From Parafrankia elaeagni (GTDB lineage: Bacteria; Actinomycetota; Actinomycetes; Frankiales; Frankiaceae), in NCBI RefSeq assembly GCF_000374165.1, contig NZ_KB893761.1, positions 189,177-225,286 of the forward strand: a stretch of 36,110 nucleotides of DNA, given 5' to 3'. The notes under the pieces are model-generated. The model made no database searches and was not told the DNA's origin. It saw only the letters and a program-made list of their open reading frames with translations. A program made the position numbers and the translations under genes. Within the stretch, counting starts at the first letter, position 1; each line of letters starts with the position of its first letter. Shown one piece after another: positions 21,878 through 36,110 of the stretch.

Positions 21878-24800
21878 GTGGGTGCACAGGGAGCGGTGGG
21901 CCGTCCGGACGGTCCGGATTCCGTCGTTCCCGGGCACGGTCCGAGCGCGGCCCCAGACCTGCTGCCGTGGCCGTACCTGCCGCGCACGGCGGCGTCGGCA
22001 TCCGAACTGCCTGTCCTCGGCACCAGGCTCGTGCCGCCACGGCCGGTCGTCCCCTCCATCTCGCGTGTGCGGCTGCTGGACAGGCTGGACACGGCGGTCG
22101 ACGGCCCGCTGACCTGCGTCTGCGCGCCTGCCGGCACCGGCAAGACGATGCTGCTTGCCGACTGGGCCAGATCCGGGCGGTCGCGGCACCCCGTGGTCTG
22201 GCTTCGTGTTGATCCCGCGCTCGGATCCCTCGGATCCCGGCGCGGGCGTCAGGCCGCCGGCCGGGTTCCGGGCGCGCAGGAAACGCCGGGCACGCCCGGG
22301 CTTTCCGCGCCGCCCTCCGGTCCACACCGGTCTGCGCCGTCCGTCTCGCTGTGGGCGCAGATCCTGCGCGCACTGTGTCGAGACGCCGCGCTGCCCGCCG
22401 GCGATCAACTGGCCCGGCTGGCGGCTGGGGCTGCTGGGGCTGCCGACAGCTGCCCCGAGCGTTTCCGGCGCGAACTCGTCAACCACCTCGCCGAGATGCC
22501 CGCTCCCGCGGTGCTGATCCTGGACGACGCCCACCTGGTCCGCGACCCAGATGATCTTGCCGTGCTGGAGCTGCTGGCGGGCGAGGGGGACGGACGTCTG
22601 CGGCTGGTCCTGGCCGGTCGGACACCCGTGCTGCGCGCCCACCGCCTCCGCGCCGAGGGCCGGCTCACCGAGTTCGGCCCGCCCGACCTGGCTTTCACCC
22701 CACAGGAGACGGCCCAGCTGCTCGCCGCGCACGGCCTCGCAGTCACCGACCGGCTGGCGACGGCCCTGTGGCGGCAGACTGAGGGGTGGGCGGTCGGTCT
22801 GCGCCTCGCTGCCGTCGGCGCAGTGGAACGCGCGAGGTCCGCTGACGGTGCGCGGCCCGTCGGCGCGCCTCGGGACGGCTGGCCGGCGGGCGATGCTGAG
22901 GAGGGCCGGGAAGCGGGGCTGGCCGGTGCGGGGGAGGGCAGCGTTCCCGCGGAGCCTGATCCCGCCTGGGGCCCTCAGACGGCCATCACCGAGTACCTGC
23001 ACGCCGAGGTCCTGTCGAGCTACCCGGAGCCGACCCGCCGATTCCTGCTCCGGACCAGTGTCCTGGAACGGATCAGCGGTCCGCTGGCGGCCGCGGTCGC
23101 TGCGATCGACATCGTGCCGGACGGCATCACACCGGACGGCATCACACCGGACGGCATCGGGGCGGTCGGGCCGGTCTGGCGGCCGGGGGCGGCGCGGGCC
23201 CGGCGCGGAGCCGTCCATCTGCTGCGCGACTTCGCGCGAACCGGTGGTTTTCTCGTTTCGCTCGACCGGTTCCGGCCGGGCAGCCACCCGGTCGGAACCG
23301 CCGCGGGCGCTGAAGCCACCGATCCGTCGCCGGACTGGTACCGGTACAACCGGTTGCTGGGGATGGCCCTGCATGGGCTGCTCCAGCAGGATCCGGATGA
23401 GGATCCCCGCGAGCTCAACCTGCGCGCAGCGCTGTGGTTCGCAGCGAACGACAGCACCTCCGACGCGGCCCGGCACGCACTGCGGGCCGGGGACTGGTGG
23501 TACCTCGCCTGCCTGCTGGTCGACGGCTCCGCTCTGATGGACATCCTGTTTGGACGGGCGCCCGAACTCGGAGTGCTCGTGGCGGCGCTGCCGGCCGGGG
23601 CAGCGGGGCTGTCACCCGAATGCGACCTCGTCCTGGCCGTGGCCCACCTGCGGTCAGGGCAGCTGGAGGCCGGGTCGGCGAGCCTGCTGTCAGCCCGCGC
23701 CCGACTGCCCGCGGTCCTGTCCGGGCCGGGTGCCTCCCGGCGGCGCACTCTTGTGGAGCGGATCGACCTGGTTGAGATGTACCGGGCCGAGCTCGCCGGG
23801 CAGCCGGCCGAGATGATCACTGCGTCCCGGCGGCTGCTGCGCTCCAGTGCCACCAGCGCTTCCAGACCATCCGGCAGGCCCGAGGCCTCCGGCCAGTCGA
23901 ACCTGCCGGATCCGTCCGGCGTGTCCGGCGTGTCCGGCGCGGCGGACCAGCTCGCTGCGACCAGGAAGGACCCGCCTCGCCCCGGACGTCCCGTGGATGA
24001 GCGGGCACGGGCGGTGGCGCTGTGCGCGCGCGGCCGCGGCGAGCTGTGGCTCGGTCGTCTTTCCGCCGCCGCCGGGTTCCTGCAGGAGGGGGCTGTCGCC
24101 GCCCGGCGGGCTGGGCTCACCGGCGTGGAGACGTCCTGCCTCGGCGCGCTTGCTCTGCAGTACGCCCTGCGTGGCCGGCTGCGGCAGGCCGAGAGCGTGC
24201 TGAGCATGGTGTTCGGCGACGCGGACCCCGCCAGCGACCACCACGCGCCCGACGCGGGGCCGGCCGCGGCCGTGCCCGGGTTCGCCGAGGCGTGGTTGGC
24301 CGCCGCGATGGTGTGGCTGCAACGGGTCGAGCTCGCCGAGGCCGGCCGGTGCCTGGGTGCGGCACGTCGGTCGCTGACCGTTGCGAACCCGGCTTTCCTG
24401 GCCGAACTCATCACCATCTGCGACACCCGGCTGCGGCTGTTGCGGGGCGCTCCCGACGATGTGCGCGCGGCCAGACGCATGCTCGCAGTCGGCAGGCCCG
24501 GGCCGATGCCGCCGTTGTGCGCAGCTGCCCGCCGGGCCGCGGAGGCGGACCTGCTTGTCGCCGCCGGGACTCCGGAGGCCGCCCGGCGCCTGCTGCTGCG
24601 CGACAGCGAACGTGCCGCGGACCCGCAGGTCCAGCTCGCGCTCGCGCGTTCGGTGCTGTCCTGCGGTGATGTGCCGGCCGCGGAGGAGACGCTCGCCCCC
24701 CTGCTGCGTGCCGACGACGGCGGCGCGGGCCTGGTCGCGGCCTGCGTGCTCGGCGCGGTCGCCGCCGCCCGGCGCAACGATCACGCCCGGGCCGGCGGGC

Positions 24801-25651
24801 TGCTCGCGCGGGCCGTTGCGCTCGCCGCCGACGAGGGAATGGTGGCCCCGTTCACCGAGGCCGGCGAGGAGCTGCTGGACCTGATGGCCGCCCACCCCGA
24901 GCTGACCGACGGCCAGCCCGCCTTCGTGGCGGCCCTGGACCGGTCCGCGGCGCCACGCCTGGCTGCCTCACTGCTGGCGGTCACGCCGCGGGCCGCCGCT
25001 CCGGACGACCTGGCGTCGCCGCCGGGCCCGTCGAACGGGCTGCGCCCGACGGGCCTGCCCCGGCCGGCGACGGGTTCCGGCCTCGCGACGGGGGGCCGCG
25101 GGAGCTCCGGTGGCCGAACGGTGCCCGGCGCGGGTGCCGAGGTGATCGTCCCCACCCCGACCAGACCGCCGGCGGATCGGGCCGGCGGGGCCACCCCGGG
25201 ACGCTGGCCGCCGTCCGCACCGGCAGCCGGCCCCCGCGCTGCCACTCCGGCACCCGCCGCCGACGGAGCCCGGTTCGCCAGAGGGGCGCCGGGTGCCGCC
25301 GGCTCGCGTTCCGCCGGCCCGGCCCCGGCAGCCGGGTTCGGGGCGGGCCCCGGGGCGGGGAACAGGCCGGAGAGCCTCGGCAGACCGGAAGAGACCCGAC
25401 CGGGAGCGGGAGGTGGGAGCCCCCTCGTACTGCCGGGAGGTCTGGGCGCCGAGCCCGCGGAGCGGCTGAGCGAACGTGAGCTGGCCGTGCTCAGCTACCT
25501 GCCGACCATGCTGACGACCGCGGAGATCGCGGCGGAGATGTACGTCTCGGTCAACACGGTCAAGACACACCTCAAGAGCATCTACCGCAAGCTGGACGTC
25601 GCCCGGCGCCGCGACGCGGTCCACCGCGCCCGGGCGCTGCACCTGCTGTGA
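21878..25651 (+). CDS. LAL-type (MalT-like) LuxR-family transcriptional regulator
   Basis: 1257 residues from GTG 21878 (GGGGGTGA upstream). An N-terminal STAND-type ATPase has Walker A CAPAGTGKT (82-90, Lys89) and Walker B VLILDDAH (Asp216, Asp217). A long helical TPR-like middle (about 490-1040) follows, for example AGDWWYLACLLVDG and ARAVALCARGRGELWLGRL. Then comes a 150-residue Pro/Gly/Ala linker and a LuxR HTH (about 1197-1257): LSERELAVLSYLPTMLTTAEIAAEMYVSVNTVKTHLKSIYRKLDV. Such proteins sense a ligand through the middle region, hydrolyse ATP and activate promoters; many sit beside secondary-metabolite genes. A small DNA repeat gives TPDGI copies near residue 412. The target is unknown. 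Confidence 0.93.
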   Translation: MGAQGAVGRPDGPDSVVPGHGPSAAPDLLPWPYLPRTAASASELPVLGTRLVPPRPVVPSISRVRLLDRLDTAVDGPLTCVCAPAGTGKTMLLADWARSGRSRHPVVWLRVDPALGSLGSRRGRQAAGRVPGAQETPGTPGLSAPPSGPHRSAPSVSLWAQILRALCRDAALPAGDQLARLAAGAAGAADSCPERFRRELVNHLAEMPAPAVLILDDAHLVRDPDDLAVLELLAGEGDGRLRLVLAGRTPVLRAHRLRAEGRLTEFGPPDLAFTPQETAQLLAAHGLAVTDRLATALWRQTEGWAVGLRLAAVGAVERARSADGARPVGAPRDGWPAGDAEEGREAGLAGAGEGSVPAEPDPAWGPQTAITEYLHAEVLSSYPEPTRRFLLRTSVLERISGPLAAAVAAIDIVPDGITPDGITPDGIGAVGPVWRPGAARARRGAVHLLRDFARTGGFLVSLDRFRPGSHPVGTAAGAEATDPSPDWYRYNRLLGMALHGLLQQDPDEDPRELNLRAALWFAANDSTSDAARHALRAGDWWYLACLLVDGSALMDILFGRAPELGVLVAALPAGAAGLSPECDLVLAVAHLRSGQLEAGSASLLSARARLPAVLSGPGASRRRTLVERIDLVEMYRAELAGQPAEMITASRRLLRSSATSASRPSGRPEASGQSNLPDPSGVSGVSGAADQLAATRKDPPRPGRPVDERARAVALCARGRGELWLGRLSAAAGFLQEGAVAARRAGLTGVETSCLGALALQYALRGRLRQAESVLSMVFGDADPASDHHAPDAGPAAAVPGFAEAWLAAAMVWLQRVELAEAGRCLGAARRSLTVANPAFLAELITICDTRLRLLRGAPDDVRAARRMLAVGRPGPMPPLCAAARRAAEADLLVAAGTPEAARRLLLRDSERAADPQVQLALARSVLSCGDVPAAEETLAPLLRADDGGAGLVAACVLGAVAAARRNDHARAGGLLARAVALAADEGMVAPFTEAGEELLDLMAAHPELTDGQPAFVAALDRSAAPRLAASLLAVTPRAAAPDDLASPPGPSNGLRPTGLPRPATGSGLATGGRGSSGGRTVPGAGAEVIVPTPTRPPADRAGGATPGRWPPSAPAAGPRAATPAPAADGARFARGAPGAAGSRSAGPAPAAGFGAGPGAGNRPESLGRPEETRPGAGGGSPLVLPGGLGAEPAERLSERELAVLSYLPTMLTTAEIAAEMYVSVNTVKTHLKSIYRKLDVARRRDAVHRARALHLL

Positions 25652-26758: not shown

Positions 26759-27802
26759 GTGACTGACCGAATGCTCAGCAACCCCGATGGTAGCCCCAGC
26801 GCCCACCCGGCCAGCGGCCGGCTTGCCGTGACGATGGACACATCGTCGGGGGTTTCCCGGCCGACCGGCGTTCCGGTGCCCCATCGGGCTCCCACCGCCC
26901 GGCACACCCCCATCGCGGCGACCTCCGCGGTGGGCCACCCCGCGTCGCGCACCCGTCCCGGTGCGGTCGCGGCGGGGCTGCCGAACCGAGCCGCTGTTCC
27001 CGCCCGCGGGCCGCAGGTGCCCCGCGACCTCGCCCTGGGCGCAGCGGAACTGCGCGGCGTCCTGCGCGTCGTCGAGGACTGCGAGCGGGCCGCCTCACTG
27101 CCCGCGTTCCGCGAGGCCGCGCTCGACGGCATGGCGCGCCACCTCGGCTACCGCCACTCCGCCTTCTTCCTGGGATCGTCGCCGCAGGCGACCTTCCAGG
27201 ACGCCCGCCCCACCGGCCGCGGCCTCGCGCTGCGCATGGCCGGGCCGTTCCTGGAGCGGTACCGCAGCCTCGAGGTCTTCAACGACCCGGAGAGCCTGCG
27301 GTTGATGTGGGAGCGCGGGCTCGTCACGCTGGACGAGATCGGCGTCCCCGACCGCCCCGAGGTGCGGCTGCGGCTCGAGCGCTTCCTGCGCGCCCACGGA
27401 ATCCACGCGAAGCTGCTGATCCGGCTGGCCGGCAACAGCGGCGTCGGCGCCGTGGTCTCGCTGCTCGACCCCCGCCCGGGTGCGTTCGGCCCGCGGGACC
27501 GGGCCGTCGGCGCGGTGCTCGCCCGCCACCTCGGCAACCTGCTGCGCTTCTACATCCGGGTCAACCCGGGACCGGCCGTCACGGCCAAGCTCTCCGCCCG
27601 CGAGCGGGACGTGGTCCGCCTCGTCGCGGAAGGCCAGTCGAACCGGCAGGTGGCGGAGGCGCTCTGCATCAGCATCGACACGGTCAAGCACCACCTGACC
27701 CACGCGCTGGTGGCCACGGGCTGCTCGAACCGCACCCAGCTCGCCCTCGCCTGGCAGCGCGAGATGGGCTCCATGCCGGCACCCGGGCTTCCCCGACTGT
27801 AG
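26759..27802 (+). CDS. LuxR-type regulator with N-terminal sensor-like domain
   Basis: 347 residues from GTG 26759; GGAGG lies 5 bases upstream, and the nearby ATG at 26755 hits a stop at once. Residues 1-90 are disordered. Residues 95-265 form a GAF/autoinducer-like sensor (VVEDCERAASLPAFREAALDGMARHLGYRHSAFFLG, then LEVFNDPESLRLMWERGLVTLDEIG and LLIRLAGNSGVGAVVSLLDPRPGAF). The C-terminus is a LuxR HTH starting about 278: LSARERDVVRLVAEGQSNRQVAEALCISIDTVKHHLTHAL. No phospho-acceptor receiver domain is present, so a small ligand is a more likely signal. No AHL synthase is nearby. It is the last regulator before the lipid synthase, on the same strand. Confidence 0.88.
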   Translation: MTDRMLSNPDGSPSAHPASGRLAVTMDTSSGVSRPTGVPVPHRAPTARHTPIAATSAVGHPASRTRPGAVAAGLPNRAAVPARGPQVPRDLALGAAELRGVLRVVEDCERAASLPAFREAALDGMARHLGYRHSAFFLGSSPQATFQDARPTGRGLALRMAGPFLERYRSLEVFNDPESLRLMWERGLVTLDEIGVPDRPEVRLRLERFLRAHGIHAKLLIRLAGNSGVGAVVSLLDPRPGAFGPRDRAVGAVLARHLGNLLRFYIRVNPGPAVTAKLSARERDVVRLVAEGQSNRQVAEALCISIDTVKHHLTHALVATGCSNRTQLALAWQREMGSMPAPGLPRL

Positions 27803-27831: not shown

Positions 27832-29920
27832 GCCGCCCATCCCGACATCCCTGGACACTCCCAGCGCCATCCGCGTATGAACGTCAGCTCAGCAAGCGCC
27901 TGATCCGCGCACCCCGCGGCGGCGCCGCCCGGACGAGAGCGTCCGACGGCGCGGCCCGGATAGCACCGCCCGGCCAGCCCCTCCTGGCCGGCCCGGCCGG
28001 CACCACCGGCTGGAACGGGGTCGGACCTGCCCATGTCCGGCCCTCGCCGACGGTGCGGTTAACAGCCCGCGCCCCGGCAGGTCCGCCCGGACCGCGTCCT
28101 CGCATGCCCCCGCGCGACGCGTCCGAGGCCGACCGTGTGACGACATGCCCCCGGGGGCCGTGACCGCGACCGGGCCCTGCCCGCCTGCCTGCCCGTCCAC
28201 CCGGACCGGTCACGCTCTTCGTCGGACTCCGTCGCCTGTACCCCGTGTTCCCAGCACCCGGTCCTCCCGGGACCGCGTGTTCCCGAAGCCGCGCGTCCCC
28301 CGGAGCCGCGCGTTCGTCCCGCCGGGCCTGTGCCGCCGTGCAGGCCCGGCGCGGCGTGTCCCCGGGCGCCCGGCTCGACGCCCGGCGAGCGGAACCGGCG
28401 GGGTGGCGGAACCAGCGGGATTGGTCGTCCGTTGGGGAGTTCTGTGGTTCTCCCGCCGCCGGGATGCGCCGGGGCGGCTGGCCGCACCCGTCCTCGCCGC
28501 TCCTGCCCCACCGGCGGCAGGGCCCACTGGCGCGGGCTGCCGGGCCGCCGGGCCGTCGGGCCGCCGGGCCGTCGGGCCGGCGACCTGCGGCGGCCGTGAC
28601 CTCCTGACCCTGCCTGACCCCCTGCCCGACCGGCTGGCCGGCCCGCGCGCCGCAGCTGGCAGCACGGTGGCCGTCATCGTGCGAACGTCGCCAGCGCCGA
28701 GCGAGGCGCGCCGCCGGGTTGTTGCTCCGGGGGCTCTCGGTTCTGTCCCGAGTCATCGCGGGGGCCCGTGTCCGGTCTCGCCGCTGGCAGCCTGGTGATG
28801 GTGCCGAACCCCACCCCGTGAACCGGGTGGGCGTCCACCGAGCTTCTGTTGGTGGTCTGTCGGTCACGGCCGGTCTCTAGTCACTTCGGGTGGTCTCCCG
28901 GTCGCGGCCGTTGGGTGCCATGCTGGTGGATCGGCACGAAATGATCGCGCGCCCGCACTCCGGAACCCGTGCAGTCGCGTGGTCGCAATGCGACTTGAAC
29001 AGCGTATTTATCAATCCAGTGTGAGGGTTGTGGGCGACATCAGTGAAAAGTCCGGCGCCTGTGCTTGCGACGCTGCCCGCGAAGTGACTAGGTTGAAAGG
29101 GCCATAGCGTCACGTGTACGGAGGGCAGAAGAGGCGAGTCCGCTGACAGCGCGTCCGCCGGTCCAGGGCCGGCGTCGGCGCGTTGTTCCGGCAGGGACCG
29201 GAGGAACACCTGGATGAATGTCATGTCGGGGGGGAACAGTGCGATCAGCCATCGCGCGTCAGGGACCCGGCCGAAGAAAGGTGCATGGGTTTTTCCGGGT
29301 AGGTTCCACTGCCCGCCTTCCATGCCCGGACAGTGCCAGGTACCGGACCGCGTAAACATGAGAAATCAGCCGGCAGAGCGGAGTTGTAGGGCCTGCCGGC
29401 GTGGCGCGACTGATGCCACCTCGCGATTCGCGAGCGATGACAACATGGGCAATGACAGCAACAACCCCGGCATTGGCCGTGCAGCGCGAGGAGGGCCCGG
29501 GGCCAGCCGCGCGGGCATCGCGGCAGTCTGCGGCGATGGGGCCGGCCAGGACGCCCGGCCTGCGTCTGATGTCGTCATGGCCGGTGACGGGCAGGGCCCT
29601 GACCAGGCAGATCACAACGCTGTTTCGCGGTGGCACCTACGTGTGGAGACCCGGTTGGGGCCGGCTAGGATTTCGCGCACGCTCGCTGGCTCAGGTGACC
29701 CGACCGGACCGGACCACCATCACAGTGACCGAATCGCCGCCAGCGGCGCGGCGCCTGTCCGGGCACCCGCTGCTGTCCCCGACTGGGAGTTGCACCTGTT
29801 CGTACTGGCGCCGCCCGCCCACGTCCGGTTCCGGGACGCCGACTGCTTCGGCCCCGTGCTGACAGCAACCGACCCCGGCCGTCTCCGTCTTCGGCGGGGC
29901 CAGGCCAGGAGGAGCAACCG
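27832..29920. other. 2.1-kb region without a convincing gene
   Basis: Open frames on both strands here translate to Arg/Pro/Gly-rich sequence with no domain. The right half (about 28900-29480) has lower and uneven G+C. Visible structure: alternating GCCGGGCCGTCGG units near 28535-28580, and a hairpin with arms CCCACCC (28810-28816) and GGGTGGG (28825-28831). AGGAGGAG (29908-29915) is the ribosome site of the synthase. It should hold the promoter of the large synthase and may contain gene remains. Confidence 0.55.
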
Positions 29921-32900
29921 ATGAGCAGCGCAGCGAGCGCGCACCCCCGGACCGAGCCCGACGACCAGGGCGAACGGGATCTGGTCGTCGTCATCAGCCC
30001 GTTCGGGGAGCCGGCGCCGCACCTGGTCGCGGCGGTCGGGCATGCCGGCGGCACGGGAATCCTCGATCTCGGCCTGGACCCGGCCCGCGGCCGCGAGGCA
30101 CTGGCCGCCGCGGCTGCCTGGTCGCCGGTGCCGATCGGAGTACGGGTGGCCCAGGGCTGCCCGCTGGAGCTGGCGGAGCTGCCTGCGTGCGTCGACACCG
30201 TGGTCCTCGGTGTCGACGCACCGTGGGGAGCGGCCGCGGTTTCCGCCGCGGGCCGGCGGGTGCTCGTCGAGGTGCTCTCGGTTTCGGCGGCGCGCCAAGC
30301 ACTCGACGACGGCGCGGATGGCCTGATCGCCCGCGGCAACGAGGCCGGCGGACGGGTCGGTGATCTCACGACATTCACTCTGCTCCAGTACCTGATCGCT
30401 GCGAAGCCGACACGGCTGGACGGAACAGTTGCCCCCGTGTGGGCCGCCGGTGGGATAGGCCCGGCGACCGCGGCGGCGGCTGTAGCCGGCGGCGCGGCCG
30501 GCGTCGTCCTCGACTCGCAGCTGGCTCTGGTACGGGAGGTGGAACTGCCCGCCGAGGTCGCGAAGGCCGTCCGCGCGATGGACGGCAGCGAGACCGCGCT
30601 GATCGACGGCCACCGGGTCTACGTGCGGCCTGACCTGCCCGTGGCCGGGCTGGTGGGCTGGGCGTCCGCGTCCGCCGTCCCGGGCGGGACGGTCGGAACC
30701 GGCGCGGGCGTCGCTGTGGTCACCGACGCCGGGCGGGCAGCGGACGAACCGGAGGTGGACTTCCGCGACACCGGTGGCGAGCGGGCGTCGGACGGCGCCC
30801 TGAGCGCCCCCACCGCCCCCACGGTCCCCGTCGCCCTGCGGCTGGGCGGGCGGGACCTGCGGGAGCAGCTGCTGCCGGTCGGGCAGGACGGCGCGTTCGC
30901 TGCCGGTCTCGCCGATCGCCACCACACGGCGAGCGCGGTTGTGCGGGCCGTACGGGAGTCGATCCGTTCCTCGCTCGCGTCAGCGGCCCGGCACCGGCCG
31001 CTCGCCCCGGGCTCGGCGTTCGCCGCCGCCCGCGGGCTGCGTCACGCCGTCGCACAGGGGCCGATGACCAGGGTCAGCGACAGGGCGCAGTTCGCGCTCT
31101 CGGTGGCCCGCGAGGGCGGACTGCCGTTCCTGGCCCTGGCCCTGATGAGCGGCAAGGAGACGCGAGCGCTCCTGGAGGAGACCGCCGCACTGCTCGGCGA
31201 CCTGCCCTGGGGCGTGGGGATTCTCGGCTTCGCGCCGCCGGAGACGCGGGCCGCCCAGCTGGACGCGGTCTACGCCGTCCGCCCGCCGTGCGCGCTGATC
31301 GCCGGTGGCCGACCGGCGCAGTCGGCGCCGCTGGAGGCGGTCGGGATCGACACCTTCCTGCACGTCCCGTCCCCGGGCCTGCTGGACCGGTTCCTCGCCG
31401 ACGGGGCGCGCAAGTTCGTCTTCGAGGGCCGCGAGTGCGGCGGCCACGTCGGGCCGCGGGCGAGCTTCCCGCTCTGGGAGGCGCAGATCGCCGGTCTGCT
31501 GGAGTTCGCCCGGCGCGGGGACGACGGGCCGGAGTCGCTGCGGGACCTGGACGTCCTGTTCGCCGGCGGGATCCACGACCCGGCCTCGGCCGCGATGGTC
31601 GCGGCGGCGGCGGCGCCGCTGGTCGACCGCGGTGCGCGGATCGGCGTGCTCATGGGCACCGCCTACCTGTTCACCGACGAGGCGGTCGCTGACGGGGCGA
31701 TCATGCCGGGCTTCCAGGACGCGGCGATCACCGCGTCCCGCACGGTGCTGCTCGAGACCTCGCCGGGGCACGCCACGCGGTGCGTGGAGTCCGCCTACGT
31801 GCATGACTTCCTCCGCCGGCGGGACGAGCTGGCCGCGGCCGGCGTCCCGCGCAAGGAGATGTGGGCCGAGCTGGAGCAGCTGAACCTCGGCCGGTTGCGC
31901 ATCGCCAGCCGGGGCGTGCGGCGGGAGGGCACCCAGCTGGTCACGGTCGGGCCCGACGAGCAGGCCACCGAGGGCATGTTCATGATTGGTCAGGTCGCCG
32001 GCCTGCGTTCGGCGCGGACGTCGATCGCCCGCCTGCACACCGAGGTCACCCAGGACGCGACAGCCCACCTGGCCGCTCGCGCGAGCGAGTTCGCCGGGGC
32101 GGCCGTCCCTGGTCCGGCCGGGCCCGCCGCGGCCCCCGTGGTTCGTTCGAGTGCTGATGATGGTGCTGACGGTGACCGGCTGGCGCGCGCCGCCCGTTCC
32201 GTCGCGGCGGTGCGTGAATCCGCCCGTCCGCTCGATGTCGCGATCATCGGAATGTCGGCCGTGTTTCCGCGGGCTGCCGACGACAAGGACTACTGGGCCA
32301 ACGTGGTCGCCGGGGTCGACGCGATAACCGAGGTCTCGCCCGAACGCTGGGACGCGGATTTCTTCTACGACTCCGACTCCATGGTGAAGGACGCCGGCCG
32401 GCGTACGCCGTCAAAATGGGGCGGCTTCCTGCCGCAGATTCCCTTCGACGCCCTTGCCTATGGAATTCCGCCCCGTTCGCTCCGCAGTATCGATCCGGGT
32501 CAGCTTCTCGCTCTTGAAGCGGCCTCCCGGGCTCTTCGCGACGCCGGATACGAGGACCGCCCGTTTGACCGGAAGCGTTCCTCGGTGGTGTTCGGTGCGG
32601 AGTCCGGATCGGACCTCTCCACCGCCTATGGTTTCCGTTCGGCTCATCGTTCCTGGGTCGGCGAGCTCCCCGCGGAGCTGGAGGAGATCCTGCCCGATCT
32701 CGACGAGGATTCCTTTCCGGGGCTGCTGGCGAACGTCATCGCCGGCCGGGTGGCCAACCGCCTTGATCTCGGCGGTCTGAACTTCACCGTGGATGCGGCC
32801 TGCGCCTCCTCTCTGGCCGCGTTGGACGCCGCCTGCAAGGAACTTTCGGCCGGTTCGTCCGACCTTGTGCTGTGCGGCGGGGTGGACACGCATTCAAGCG

Positions 32901-35900
32901 TGCATGACTTCCTGCTTTTCGCCTCGGTGCACGCGCTGTCCCCGGGTGGGCGGTGCCGCAGCTTCGCCGCCGGTGCGGACGGCACCAGCCTCGGTGAGGG
33001 CGTCGCGGTGGTCGTCCTCAAGCGGCTCGCGGACGCCCAGCGTGACGGTGACCGGATCCGGGCCGTGATCCGCGCGGTCGCCGGCTCGTCCGACGGCCGG
33101 GCCCTCGGGCTGACCGCCCCGCGCAAGGCCGGCCAGGTGATCGCGCTGGAACGTGCCTACTCGTCGGCGGGGATCTCGCCGTCCGAGGTGGGGATGCTGG
33201 AGGCGCACGCCACCGGCACCGTCGTCGGCGACCGGACGGAGCTCGCCACTCTCACCGAGGTGTTCAAGGAGCACGGCGCCGGCGCCGGCCAGTGCGCCGT
33301 CGGCTCGGTGAAGTCCCAGATCGGCCACACCAAGTGCGCCGCGGGGCTTGCCGGTCTGGTCAAGGTGGCACGCGCGGTGGAGACGGGCGTCCGCCCGCCG
33401 ACCCTGCACGTCGACCAGCCCAATCCGTACTGGGACCGGTCGGACAGCCCGTTCTACTTCGACGACCGGGCCCGGCCCTGGGTGGCGCCCGCCGGAGCCC
33501 GGCACGCCGGCCTGTCCGCCTTCGGCTTCGGCGGGACCAACTTCCACGTCGTCGTCTCCGCCTACGACAAGGCACCGGAGCCGGCTCACGGCCTGGACCG
33601 CTGGCCGGCCGAGCTGTTCCTGGTCCAGGGCCGCGACCGGGAGGCCGCGCTGCGCCGCCTGGACCGCCTGGACGCGCTCGCCCGTGCCAACGACGGTGCG
33701 GGACGTCCCTACCAGCTGCGCGATCTGGCCCGTACCGTGTGCGAGGAGGCCGGGGGACCGGTCCAGATCGCCTTCGTCGCGGACGACCTGGACGCCCTGG
33801 CGGGCGCGATCACCCAGGCCAGGGAGCCCCTTTCGGCCCCGCGGGCAGGCGTGTTCGTCCGCGGCGGTGACGACGGTGCCACGGTGGCCGCCGGCATCGC
33901 GCCGGGTCCCGACACCGGGGCCGAAGCGGTGCCCGGGGGCGACGGCACGGCGGGCAGCCTGGCCTTTGTCTTCCCGGGGCAGGGGAGCCAGCGGCCGGGC
34001 ATGCTCGCGGATCTCTTCGTGGCCTTTCCGCGGCTTCGTTCGCTGCTGGAGCTCGCCCCGGACGTGGCAGCGACCATGTTCCCCCCGGCGGCCTTCAGCG
34101 ACGCCGAGCGCGCCGCCCAGACCGCCGCCCTCACGGACACCCGGGCCGCCCAGCCCGCGTTGGGGCTGGCCGGACTGGCCGTCTTCGAGCTGCTGGCGGG
34201 GCTGCGGATCCGTCCGGATCACGTCGCCGGGCACTCGTACGGCGAGCTGGCGGCGCTCAGCGCCGCCGGCGTCCTCGACCGGGAGGCGCTCGTCCGGCTC
34301 AGCCGGGCCCGCGCGGACGCGATCCTCGCGGCGGCGGGCAGCGACCCCGGCACCATGGCCGCGGTGTCCGCGACAGCGGACCAGATCCGGGCCGCGCTCG
34401 GGGAACCCGCGGACGACGGCACCATCGCCGGCGTGGCCCTCGCCAACCAGAACGCACCCCGCCAGACGGTGATCTCCGGGCCGTCCGCCGCCGTCGACGC
34501 GGCGGTGGAGCGGCTGAAGGTGGCCGGCCTGTCGTCCCGGCGGATCCCGGTGGCCTGCGCCTTCCACAGCCCGGTCGTCGCCGGCGCCGCGCACACGCTC
34601 GCCACCGAGCTCGACGGGACGACTCTCGCGACGAACGTCATCCCGGTGTGGTCCAACACCCTGGCGGCCCCCTACCCGGGGACGCCGGCGGAGATCCGCG
34701 CGGTGCTCGCCGGCCAGGTCGCGGCGCCGGTCCGCTTCGTGGAGCAGATCGAGGCCATGTACGCCGCCGGCGTCCGTGTCTTCGTCGAGGCCGGGCCGGG
34801 CCGGGTGCTGGCACAGCTCATCGGCAAGATCCTCGCCGGCCGGCCGCACCGGGTGGTCGTCACCGACGCGCCGGCCGAGAACGGCCTGCGGCGCCTGCTG
34901 CTCGCCGTGGCCGAGCTCGCCGCGGCCGGCGTGGATGTCGACCCGTCCCCCCTGTTCACCGGGCGGGACACCCGTCCGGCCGCGGCCGAGCGCATGCCGC
35001 GCCGGCCCGGCTGGCTTCTCGACGGTGCCTACGTGCGGACCAGCGACGGACGTCAGCTGCCCGGCGGCCTGCTGCCGGCGCGGCGGATCGCCCCGGCCGC
35101 CCCGGTCACCGCCGCCCCGGTCACCGCCGCCCCGGTCACCGCCACCCCGGACAGCGGCGCCCCAGCCGCGCACCGACACGATCTTCTCGAATGGCCGGGT
35201 ACGGGGCCCGGCGAATCGGTGGGAGGTTCTGCAGTGGTCGATCTTCGGACCGTCAACGGGAACGGCGTCGCTCACCCGGCGGCAGGCCCGAGCCCGAACG
35301 GAGCCCGGGCCGCTGTCCCATCTGGCACAGCCCCGGCCGGCTCCGTCCCGGCTCCTGACGCCCCGCCCGCTGGTGCCCCGGCCGCTGCGGCGCCCGCCGC
35401 TCCCGGCCCGACCGACAGCCTGGTGCTGGAGTTCCTGCGGACGGGCCGAGAGCTCGTGGCCGCCCAGCGGGACGTCCTGCTCACCTACCTGAACGCCGGC
35501 CGGCCCGCGCCGGCCAGCACCGCACCGCCTGCCGCGCCGGCCCAGCTCCCGCTCGGCACCTCGCGGGCCTGGCCGGAGTCGAACGGCCACCTGCCCGGCA
35601 CGGCGGCGCAGGGCCCGGGCCTCGCCCACGCCCCACGCCACGCTGACTTCGGCGCGGCGGCCGTCGTGCCGCCGCCGACCGCGGCTGTCCCGACCGCGGC
35701 TGTCCCGACGGCAGGCGGGCTGGCGGCCGGCGCTCCGGAGACGGGCGTCTCCGTCAACGGCACCGGTGCCCTGCACGCCTCCCGGACTGTCTCGGTGCCC
35801 GCGCAGGTCACGGCGCGTTCGGTGGAGACAGCCGGGCCGGTGGTCCGTGGGATGGGTGAGGTCACGGATGCCGTGGTCGGGGTGATCGCGGATCTGACGG

Positions 35901-36110
35901 GTTATCCGGTGGAGATGCTGGAGCCTGATCTGGATCTTGAGGCTGATCTGTCGATTGATTCGATCAAGCGGACGGAGATCCTCGGGGAGCTTGCCGGGCG
36001 GGTGGGTCTGCCGGGTGCGGGCGGCGGGGCGTCCGAGCTGGACGAGTCGGTGGTCGAGGAGTTGGCGGCGGTGAAGACGGTGCGGGGGATCGCGACCTGG
36101 ATCGTCGAGC
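29921..36110 (+). CDS. PfaA-like type I lipid/polyketide synthase (NPD-NPD-KS-AT-ACP), truncated by window end
   Basis: 2063 codons visible; no stop. ATG 29921 follows AGGAGGAG at ideal spacing. Domains: NPD/FabK-like flavin domain 1 (about 15-235; AAGGIGPATA, but GNEAGGRVG with Arg145 where His is expected). NPD/FabK-like domain 2 (about 350-690; QGPMTRVSD, EGRECGGHVG with His509, AGGIHDPASA), resembling PfaD enoyl reductases. KS (about 770-1205; active Cys961 in DAACASSLAAL, His1096 in HATGT, His1136 in KSQIGHTKC). AT (about 1346-1640; Ser1439 in GHSYGELAAL, and CAFHSPVV, malonyl type). Ala/Pro linker with short repeats. ACP (about 1965-2055; Ser2014 in LSIDSIKRTEIL, the PUFA-synthase ACP motif). 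This predicts iterative assembly of a reduced or partly unsaturated long acyl chain from malonyl units in the cytoplasm; the product is unknown. Confidence 0.93.
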   Translation, partial: MSSAASAHPRTEPDDQGERDLVVVISPFGEPAPHLVAAVGHAGGTGILDLGLDPARGREALAAAAAWSPVPIGVRVAQGCPLELAELPACVDTVVLGVDAPWGAAAVSAAGRRVLVEVLSVSAARQALDDGADGLIARGNEAGGRVGDLTTFTLLQYLIAAKPTRLDGTVAPVWAAGGIGPATAAAAVAGGAAGVVLDSQLALVREVELPAEVAKAVRAMDGSETALIDGHRVYVRPDLPVAGLVGWASASAVPGGTVGTGAGVAVVTDAGRAADEPEVDFRDTGGERASDGALSAPTAPTVPVALRLGGRDLREQLLPVGQDGAFAAGLADRHHTASAVVRAVRESIRSSLASAARHRPLAPGSAFAAARGLRHAVAQGPMTRVSDRAQFALSVAREGGLPFLALALMSGKETRALLEETAALLGDLPWGVGILGFAPPETRAAQLDAVYAVRPPCALIAGGRPAQSAPLEAVGIDTFLHVPSPGLLDRFLADGARKFVFEGRECGGHVGPRASFPLWEAQIAGLLEFARRGDDGPESLRDLDVLFAGGIHDPASAAMVAAAAAPLVDRGARIGVLMGTAYLFTDEAVADGAIMPGFQDAAITASRTVLLETSPGHATRCVESAYVHDFLRRRDELAAAGVPRKEMWAELEQLNLGRLRIASRGVRREGTQLVTVGPDEQATEGMFMIGQVAGLRSARTSIARLHTEVTQDATAHLAARASEFAGAAVPGPAGPAAAPVVRSSADDGADGDRLARAARSVAAVRESARPLDVAIIGMSAVFPRAADDKDYWANVVAGVDAITEVSPERWDADFFYDSDSMVKDAGRRTPSKWGGFLPQIPFDALAYGIPPRSLRSIDPGQLLALEAASRALRDAGYEDRPFDRKRSSVVFGAESGSDLSTAYGFRSAHRSWVGELPAELEEILPDLDEDSFPGLLANVIAGRVANRLDLGGLNFTVDAACASSLAALDAACKELSAGSSDLVLCGGVDTHSSVHDFLLFASVHALSPGGRCRSFAAGADGTSLGEGVAVVVLKRLADAQRDGDRIRAVIRAVAGSSDGRALGLTAPRKAGQVIALERAYSSAGISPSEVGMLEAHATGTVVGDRTELATLTEVFKEHGAGAGQCAVGSVKSQIGHTKCAAGLAGLVKVARAVETGVRPPTLHVDQPNPYWDRSDSPFYFDDRARPWVAPAGARHAGLSAFGFGGTNFHVVVSAYDKAPEPAHGLDRWPAELFLVQGRDREAALRRLDRLDALARANDGAGRPYQLRDLARTVCEEAGGPVQIAFVADDLDALAGAITQAREPLSAPRAGVFVRGGDDGATVAAGIAPGPDTGAEAVPGGDGTAGSLAFVFPGQGSQRPGMLADLFVAFPRLRSLLELAPDVAATMFPPAAFSDAERAAQTAALTDTRAAQPALGLAGLAVFELLAGLRIRPDHVAGHSYGELAALSAAGVLDREALVRLSRARADAILAAAGSDPGTMAAVSATADQIRAALGEPADDGTIAGVALANQNAPRQTVISGPSAAVDAAVERLKVAGLSSRRIPVACAFHSPVVAGAAHTLATELDGTTLATNVIPVWSNTLAAPYPGTPAEIRAVLAGQVAAPVRFVEQIEAMYAAGVRVFVEAGPGRVLAQLIGKILAGRPHRVVVTDAPAENGLRRLLLAVAELAAAGVDVDPSPLFTGRDTRPAAAERMPRRPGWLLDGAYVRTSDGRQLPGGLLPARRIAPAAPVTAAPVTAAPVTATPDSGAPAAHRHDLLEWPGTGPGESVGGSAVVDLRTVNGNGVAHPAAGPSPNGARAAVPSGTAPAGSVPAPDAPPAGAPAAAAPAAPGPTDSLVLEFLRTGRELVAAQRDVLLTYLNAGRPAPASTAPPAAPAQLPLGTSRAWPESNGHLPGTAAQGPGLAHAPRHADFGAAAVVPPPTAAVPTAAVPTAGGLAAGAPETGVSVNGTGALHASRTVSVPAQVTARSVETAGPVVRGMGEVTDAVVGVIADLTGYPVEMLEPDLDLEADLSIDSIKRTEILGELAGRVGLPGAGGGASELDESVVEELAAVKTVRGIATWIVE
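35099..35143 (+). repeat. Three perfect 15-bp copies in the synthase linker
   Basis: The unit GCCCCGGTCACCGCC gives APVTA repeats between AT and ACP. A second 15-bp duplication (PTAAV) occurs near 35680-35710. Confidence 0.88.

Follow-up and report, generated by a model that had tools for sequence, protein, structure and literature searches.

The PfaA-like type I synthase of Parafrankia elaeagni begins with two barrels of the FabK/nitronate monooxygenase (NMO) type, the first of which (copy 1) has lost the catalytic residue and most of the FMN contacts of FabK, with the corresponding sites being intact in the second (copy 2). Both lie within the window, that is, the whole 36,110-nucleotide stretch of DNA analysed here. 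The N-terminus of the synthase would form a two-barrel enoyl-reductase unit of an iterative lipid synthase, and it is probable, in our judgement, that copy 2 is the working reductase of this unit and copy 1 its dead structural partner in cis.

Domain layout and fold of the two barrels

The synthase gene starts at position 29921 and runs on the plus strand to 36109, encoding 2063 aa up to the window end, where the still open reading frame is cut off by the end of the contig; the full length is 2930 aa in the P. colletiae relative (L042). The domain order in the window ORF is NMO-type barrel 1, NMO-type barrel 2, KS, AT, and ACP. Copy 1 spans 29975..30640 (aa 19-240) and is followed by a disordered linker at 30668..30814 (aa 250-298; pLDDT <50) and by copy 2 at 30824..32059 (about aa 302-713). 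Behind them, and likewise on the plus strand, are the ketosynthase domain at 32234..33559 (aa 772-1213; PF00109 and PF02801, with a fabF-type span), the acyltransferase domain at 33959..34930 (aa 1347-1670; PF00698 and the fabD model), and the first acyl carrier domain at 35870..36010 (aa 1984-2030; PF00550, with DLSIDSI at aa 2009). The KS-AT-ACP(n)-KR order of PfaA is present, with the full-length P. colletiae protein reading KS-AT-ACP-KR and containing two ACP motifs. Against the PfaA model TIGR02813 (curated cut-off, 1010.1 bits), the window protein, cut short by the contig end, scores 678.6 bits, below the cut-off, and the full P. colletiae, Pedobacter, and Beijerinckia relatives score 909.3, 1032.3, and 1156.1 bits, respectively. 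Copy 1 of the window is 97% identical to copy 1 of another genome of the same genus (G017).

The original prediction, made from the sequence alone, placed two NPD/FabK-like segments at the start of the synthase, and both were found to be FabK/NMO-type TIM barrels. Whether the shorter first segment (residues 15-235) would model as such a barrel had been one of the two points on which it was to stand or fall; modelled alone, copy 1 gave a complete, eight-stranded FabK-like barrel (pLDDT 94.9) with a strong fold match to FabK. Copy 1 thus has the barrel of FabK but not its lid, catalytic His, motif-I Met, or strand-8 Gly; copy 2 has both the barrel and the lid. The model of the tandem—two domains plus linker—reached a pTM of 0.91, which, although pTM is an indirect measure, fits a fixed mutual placement of the two barrels.

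Copy 2 carries Met382 of motif I (QGPM; 31064..31066), the catalytic His509 within E-x-G-G-H-x-G (31445..31447), and the strand-8 FMN-phosphate motif Gly579-Thr580 (31655..31660), all on the plus strand. Its identity to FabK in structural alignment is 22-25%, and its score against the FabK model TIGR03151 is 48.2 bits, far below the curated equivalog cut-off of 453.1 bits. The PfaD model TIGR02814 did not match copy 2 at E≤1, either among all matches of one query (P0003) or among the best 25 of 33 families for another (P0001), and the PfaD N-terminal domain PF18328 gave no hit at E≤1; in a search of the organism's own genome, TIGR02814 returned a single match, on another contig (C50). The second segment had been likened to PfaD as well as to FabK. 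The former likeness failed, with PfaD being ruled out by the lack of a match to its model, and by sequence copy 2 is classed as FabK-type, not PfaD-type. Its most likely reaction, judging from the conserved residues, is the reduction of enoyl-ACP with FMN, and as a working FMN-dependent reductase of the FabK type it would saturate enoyl-ACP chains for the KS-AT-ACP-KR portion fused behind it.

Loss of the reductase site in copy 1 and its retention across relatives

In the solved reductase scERb, FMN is reported to be contacted by the motif-I residues around a conserved Met, by a Glu that precedes motif III and a Gly within that motif, by two Gly residues of a single loop, by a Gly-Thr pair, and by the catalytic His (PMC13311796). 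The corresponding sites were read in an alignment of 76 tandems (the window and 75 of 80 kept loci) with 13 reference FabK/NMO proteins, the placement of motif I and of the Glu site in copy 1 being alignment-based. All substitutions described here are on the plus strand. At the motif-I Met position, copy 1 has Pro27 (29999..30001), with P in 71/76 rows, a gap in three, A and L in one each, and Met in none; the same column in the references is Met in 9/13 and a gap in 4/13. Seven residues before the catalytic His site, where the references have Q 9, E 2, D 1, and V 1, Arg138 (30332..30334) stands in place of Glu/Gln, with R in 40 and K in 26 of the 76 rows. The catalytic site itself is occupied by Arg145 (30353..30355), the 76 rows reading R 59, A 4, L 4, P 3, K 2, and one each of V, W, S, and Q. 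The phosphate-binding Gly on barrel strand 8 is replaced by Asp198 (30512..30514) in 76/76 rows and, beyond the alignment, by D in 68 and E in one of 69 loci and by D in 38/38 weaker matches; the catalytic His and strand-8 Gly are present in 13/13 references. Gln200 is found in 72/76 rows.

Not all of the site has been lost, however. Copy 1 retains E141 (76/76), G143 (73/76), G144 (76/76), and the strand-7 Gly pair (76/76), and with E-x-G-G and, at the phosphate site, the strand-7 GG thus kept, some ligand could still bind. In copy 2, the Met, Glu, His, Gly-Gly, and Gly sites are invariant over the same 76 rows and the Thr site has Thr in 72 and Ser in 4, the Met and His counts being partly so by construction because the loci were fetched by two copy-2 patterns (motif-I Met; His) and the reading scripts required the His motif. 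Five loci were left out of the alignment: L042, with Arg in copy 1; L048, which is cut before copy 1; and L072, L075, and L090, which have a variant copy-2 motif and, read by eye, showed Arg in copy 1 and His in copy 2.

A count free of any copy-2 condition was made on 70 loci fetched by copy 1 alone, namely the best 30 from the window's order, 10 from the phylum sample, and the 30 best of 52 strong matches in the genus of genome G058; one of these is the window itself and two repeat others. Copy 2 was present in 69/70, the exception being a 385-aa ORF (L041), which was dropped. Conditioned on copy 1 only, copy 2 had His, Met, Glu, and Gly in 69/69 each, and copy 1 was non-His in 69/69. The letter at the copy 1 site was R 13, A 5, V 4, L 4, F 2, and P 2 in the 30 loci of the window's order, and R in 30/30 of the best matches from the genus of G058. 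In one locus (L024, genome G021), copy 1 lies in two overlapping pieces with one TGA, reflecting a frameshift or an assembly error.

Since the first 70 loci were best matches, 40 weaker copy-1 matches were added (21 of the remaining 22 from the genus of G058 and 19 from the window's order), of which 38 were readable. The copy 1 site in these was R 32, P 4, V 2, and His 0, and copy 2 had His in 36/36 with a letter there, L201 and L227 being cut before the copy-2 motifs; Met was likewise found in 36/36. The two unread loci, L231 and L234, have copy 1 and copy 2 in separate reading frames, through frameshifts or assembly errors. A separate reading, with the copy-2 His motif required, covered 116/120 loci and gave R 78, A 9, L 9, V 5, P 5, W 3, F 2, K 2, S 1, Q 1, gap 1, and His 0; the four missed were L072, L075, and L090 (all Arg) and L041, without copy 2. 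These counts are of loci, not of independent species, because the loci overlap between searches (e.g., L003/L042, L004/L043, L036/L170, L037/L165). The predicted replacement of the catalytic His by Arg145 was borne out, with no relative read having His at this site (0/107 loci fetched by copy 1, 0/76 rows, and 0/4 divergent relatives), as was the retention of His509. The loss of His as a one-strain oddity was rejected, the substitution being family-wide, and so was a special role for Arg145, the site being loose in the window's own family: Arg is, on these readings, the commonest letter but not essential to the picture.

With respect to distribution, a copy 1 match was found in 34/36 genomes of the window's order at E≤0.001, some of them only NMO-like, in 11/396 genomes of the phylum sample at E≤1e-15 (including the organism's own genome and one with only the 385-aa L041), and in 115/150 genomes of the genus of G058 at E≤1e-12. 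In this last genus, among the matches listed, 52, from 50 genomes, score 189 bits or more, and the next are NMO-like proteins at 91 bits. A copy-2-pattern scan confirmed at least 573 relatives, 80 of which were kept; these come, by record title, from at least seven phyla, including Actinomycetota, Acidobacteriota, Planctomycetota, Myxococcota, Chloroflexota, Bacteroidota, and Pseudomonadota, and many are MAGs. Of seven records from a plasmid search, two from Streptomyces had both copies, two were weak Listeria matches, and three at first matched copy 2 only. The last three—Beijerinckia indica, Methylosinus, and a Rhodobacteraceae strain—turned out to have a copy 1 as well, divergent and reading Q, R, and W, respectively, at the His site, so that single-barrel fusions were rejected; in Methylosinus, the annotated start omits the first half of copy 1. 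A further divergent KS synthase (L150, genome G437, reached via L099) has copy 1 eroded to part of a barrel (EAGGLVP, with L at the site) and copy 2 retaining EGHEAGGHVG. The Asp198 site reads A, S, S, and G in these four divergent relatives, and Asp198 is therefore not universal.

Selection was gauged by Nei-Gojobori dN/dS of the window against eight relatives, a crude method in a GC-rich genome, giving 0.14-0.36 for copy 1, 0.11-0.35 for copy 2, and 0.17-0.70 for the linker (aa 241-300) in eight comparisons, and 0.08-0.23 for the KS in the five pairs reaching it. In two pairs (L005 and L006), the linker, at 43 codons, was no looser than copy 1. On these ratios, copy 1 is plainly constrained, much like copy 2, and is a conserved pseudo-reductase rather than a decaying relic. 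The description of the first copy as a pseudoenzyme is thus well founded, because the His is absent from all relatives read, other FMN contacts and the lid have been lost, and copy 1 is under purifying selection.

Origin and role of copy 1

An ancient tandem duplication had been proposed as the source of the two barrels, and as worded this proposal was not supported. In a tree with PfaD, copy 1 and copy 2 formed two clean groups (100/99 and 100/100) without a supported sister relation; in a tree without the longest branches, they grouped at 80/77, unstarred, with long branches meeting. In profile comparisons, each copy was nearer to the FabK-like references (7.8e-20 for copy 1 and 3.3e-17 for copy 2) than to the other copy (2.8e-10). 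Tandem duplication is therefore only possible. For separate recruitment of the barrels from the FabK/NMO family, with which the profile comparisons and the tree with PfaD are in keeping, the chances fall just short of even: the copies do group once the longest branches are removed, and two fast-evolving copies would each seem closer to a slow relative anyway.

As a FabK-like barrel minus its lid, catalytic His, and most FMN contacts, copy 1 would be unable to carry out reductase chemistry and be retained as a pseudoenzyme. As to what it does, it most likely serves copy 2 as a structural partner in cis, a reading that draws on structural models and on analogy. FabK reductases are homodimers (PMC9260719), and thraustochytrid ERb, insoluble and without FMN alone, is reported to form a stable heterodimer with ERc (PMC13311796). 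By packing on copy 2 in the same chain, copy 1 would replace the second subunit of the FabK homodimer, thereby allowing the reductase to fold and to hold FMN and leaving the KS dimer to set the megasynthase symmetry. Consistent with this are the full barrel formed by copy 1 alone, the pTM of the tandem, the losses in copy 1 at the scERb-named sites that are intact in copy 2, the retention of copy 1, and the selection acting on it. On the other side, the precedent is imperfect, with ERb keeping its His and binding FMN in the heterodimer and hence being no pseudoenzyme; the eroded copy 1 of L150 fits a tightly needed partner less well; and two copy 2 barrels, one from each chain of the KS dimer, could pair with each other just as well.

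The same substitutions may be read differently, with the FMN site having been remodelled (Arg/Lys138, Arg145, Asp198, Gln200) for the phosphopantetheine arm, a nucleotide, or acyl-ACP, and copy 1 being a ligand-binding or regulatory domain that gates or docks substrate for copy 2. Their conservation in the alignment (Asp198 76/76, Gln200 72/76, Arg/Lys138 66/76, Arg145 59/76) and the kept GG loops are in favour of this reading, but Arg145 is freely replaced in the window's order and Asp198 in the four divergent relatives, and no fixed binding signature therefore spans the copy 1 family; we regard such a role as unlikely. That copy 1 remains active as a flavin enzyme, through a different chemistry having no need of the His, is very unlikely: the retained E-x-GG-x-x-G and strand-7 GG and the fold match are offset by five separate losses around FMN, lid included. 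Loss of FMN binding has been reported for a single lid change, M276A, in Thermotoga maritima FabK (PMC13311796, citing Ha et al., 2017), and FMN would be expected to be repelled where its phosphate site holds an acidic residue. A neutral duplication relic on its way out is barely credible, neutral decay being rejected on dN/dS. The eroded copy 1 of L150 and the loose His site in the window's family are what such a relic would show, but purifying selection of about the same strength on both copies, residues invariant across phyla, and the presence of copy 1 in all three plasmid records that first matched copy 2 only are not; samples fetched by copy 1 are themselves silent on its loss.

Genomic context, related synthases, and significance

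Two LuxR-type regulators lie upstream of the synthase (21878-25651 and 26759-27802), one of them large, with AAA and MalT-like TPR matches. A 236-aa ORF at 29214-29924 overlaps the synthase start; it has no Pfam match, similar ORFs occur only in the same-genus loci compared, and it is perhaps not a gene. In the relative L130, on the minus strand, the next gene overlaps the synthase end and encodes a KS-AT-DH protein of 1638 aa, without a PPTase match at E≤0.001; the second gene of Pedobacter has an ACPS and no DH match at E≤0.01. Further downstream in L130 are genes for an alpha/beta hydrolase, a UDP-glycosyltransferase-like protein, and a methyltransferase, which makes a glycosylated lipid a reasonable guess as the synthase product; nothing specific on Frankia glycolipids was found in the open-licence literature searched. 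Elsewhere in the same genome, contig C50 carries a separate PfaD (30772-32079; locus L129, 8095-10248), with 627.5 bits against TIGR02814 and a FabD helical-insert match, which adjoins a KS-AT-ACP-KR-DH gene and carboxylase genes. This locus is a second Pfa-type cluster, of a more classical appearance.

PfaA proteins with a fused reductase have already been published, as pfaDA with pfaBC, with examples from Renibacterium, Flavobacteriales, and Ottowia and with a fused pfaBC carrying a PPTase in Renibacterium (PMC13291983), and Type M secondary lipid synthases have been reported in three Frankia genomes (Shulse and Allen, 2011; PMC3098273). The present synthase resembles these published fusions in having a reductase before a PfaA-like KS-AT-ACP-KR protein, followed in L130 by the KS-AT-DH gene. 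Unlike it, the published fusions are described, in the text consulted, as having one fused ER, called a pfaD homologue; here, there are a second, inactive barrel and a FabK-type copy 2. Two FMN-reductase-type barrels per synthase are also found in thraustochytrid ERb/ERc (PDB 9SDD), in which ERb needs its partner to fold and bind FMN; these are, however, PfaD-like, located on two different chains, and both reported to have the catalytic His and FMN (PMC13311796). The difference from FabK lies in the score of copy 2 against TIGR03151, in the absence from copy 1 of the lid, the His, and most FMN contacts, and in the fusion of both to a PKS-like protein.

Type P synthases include those of Beijerinckia and Azotobacter (PMC3098273), and ArsA of Azotobacter vinelandii is reported to make the acyl chains of phenolic lipids (PMC3098273, PMC4824345). 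The Type P protein of Beijerinckia indica (L191) has the same order as that in the window, starting with a copy 1 whose His site is Gln and a His-bearing copy 2 and going on to KS, AT, ACP, and KR. It differs in having Ala at the Asp198 site and downstream neighbours annotated as KAS III C-terminal-domain proteins, compared with the KS-AT-DH gene. In the open-licence literature searched, as far as its text was available, no description of an inactive first barrel or of a second ER in such synthases was found.

We tentatively propose, at somewhat less than even confidence, that a dead FabK barrel was fused before a live one as a built-in pseudo-dimer partner, or as a remodelled docking site, that it has been kept since before these synthases spread over many phyla, and that it is common to a Type P synthase of the phenolic-lipid kind, that of Beijerinckia. 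If so, copy 1 would be an overlooked, conserved pseudoenzyme in a widespread class of bacterial lipid synthases, and would explain how a normally dimeric FabK-type reductase was built into a KS-dimeric megasynthase. The annotation of both barrels as active reductases would then call for caution, and the pair would allow the reasons for which pseudo-domains are kept during PKS/FAS evolution to be tested cleanly.
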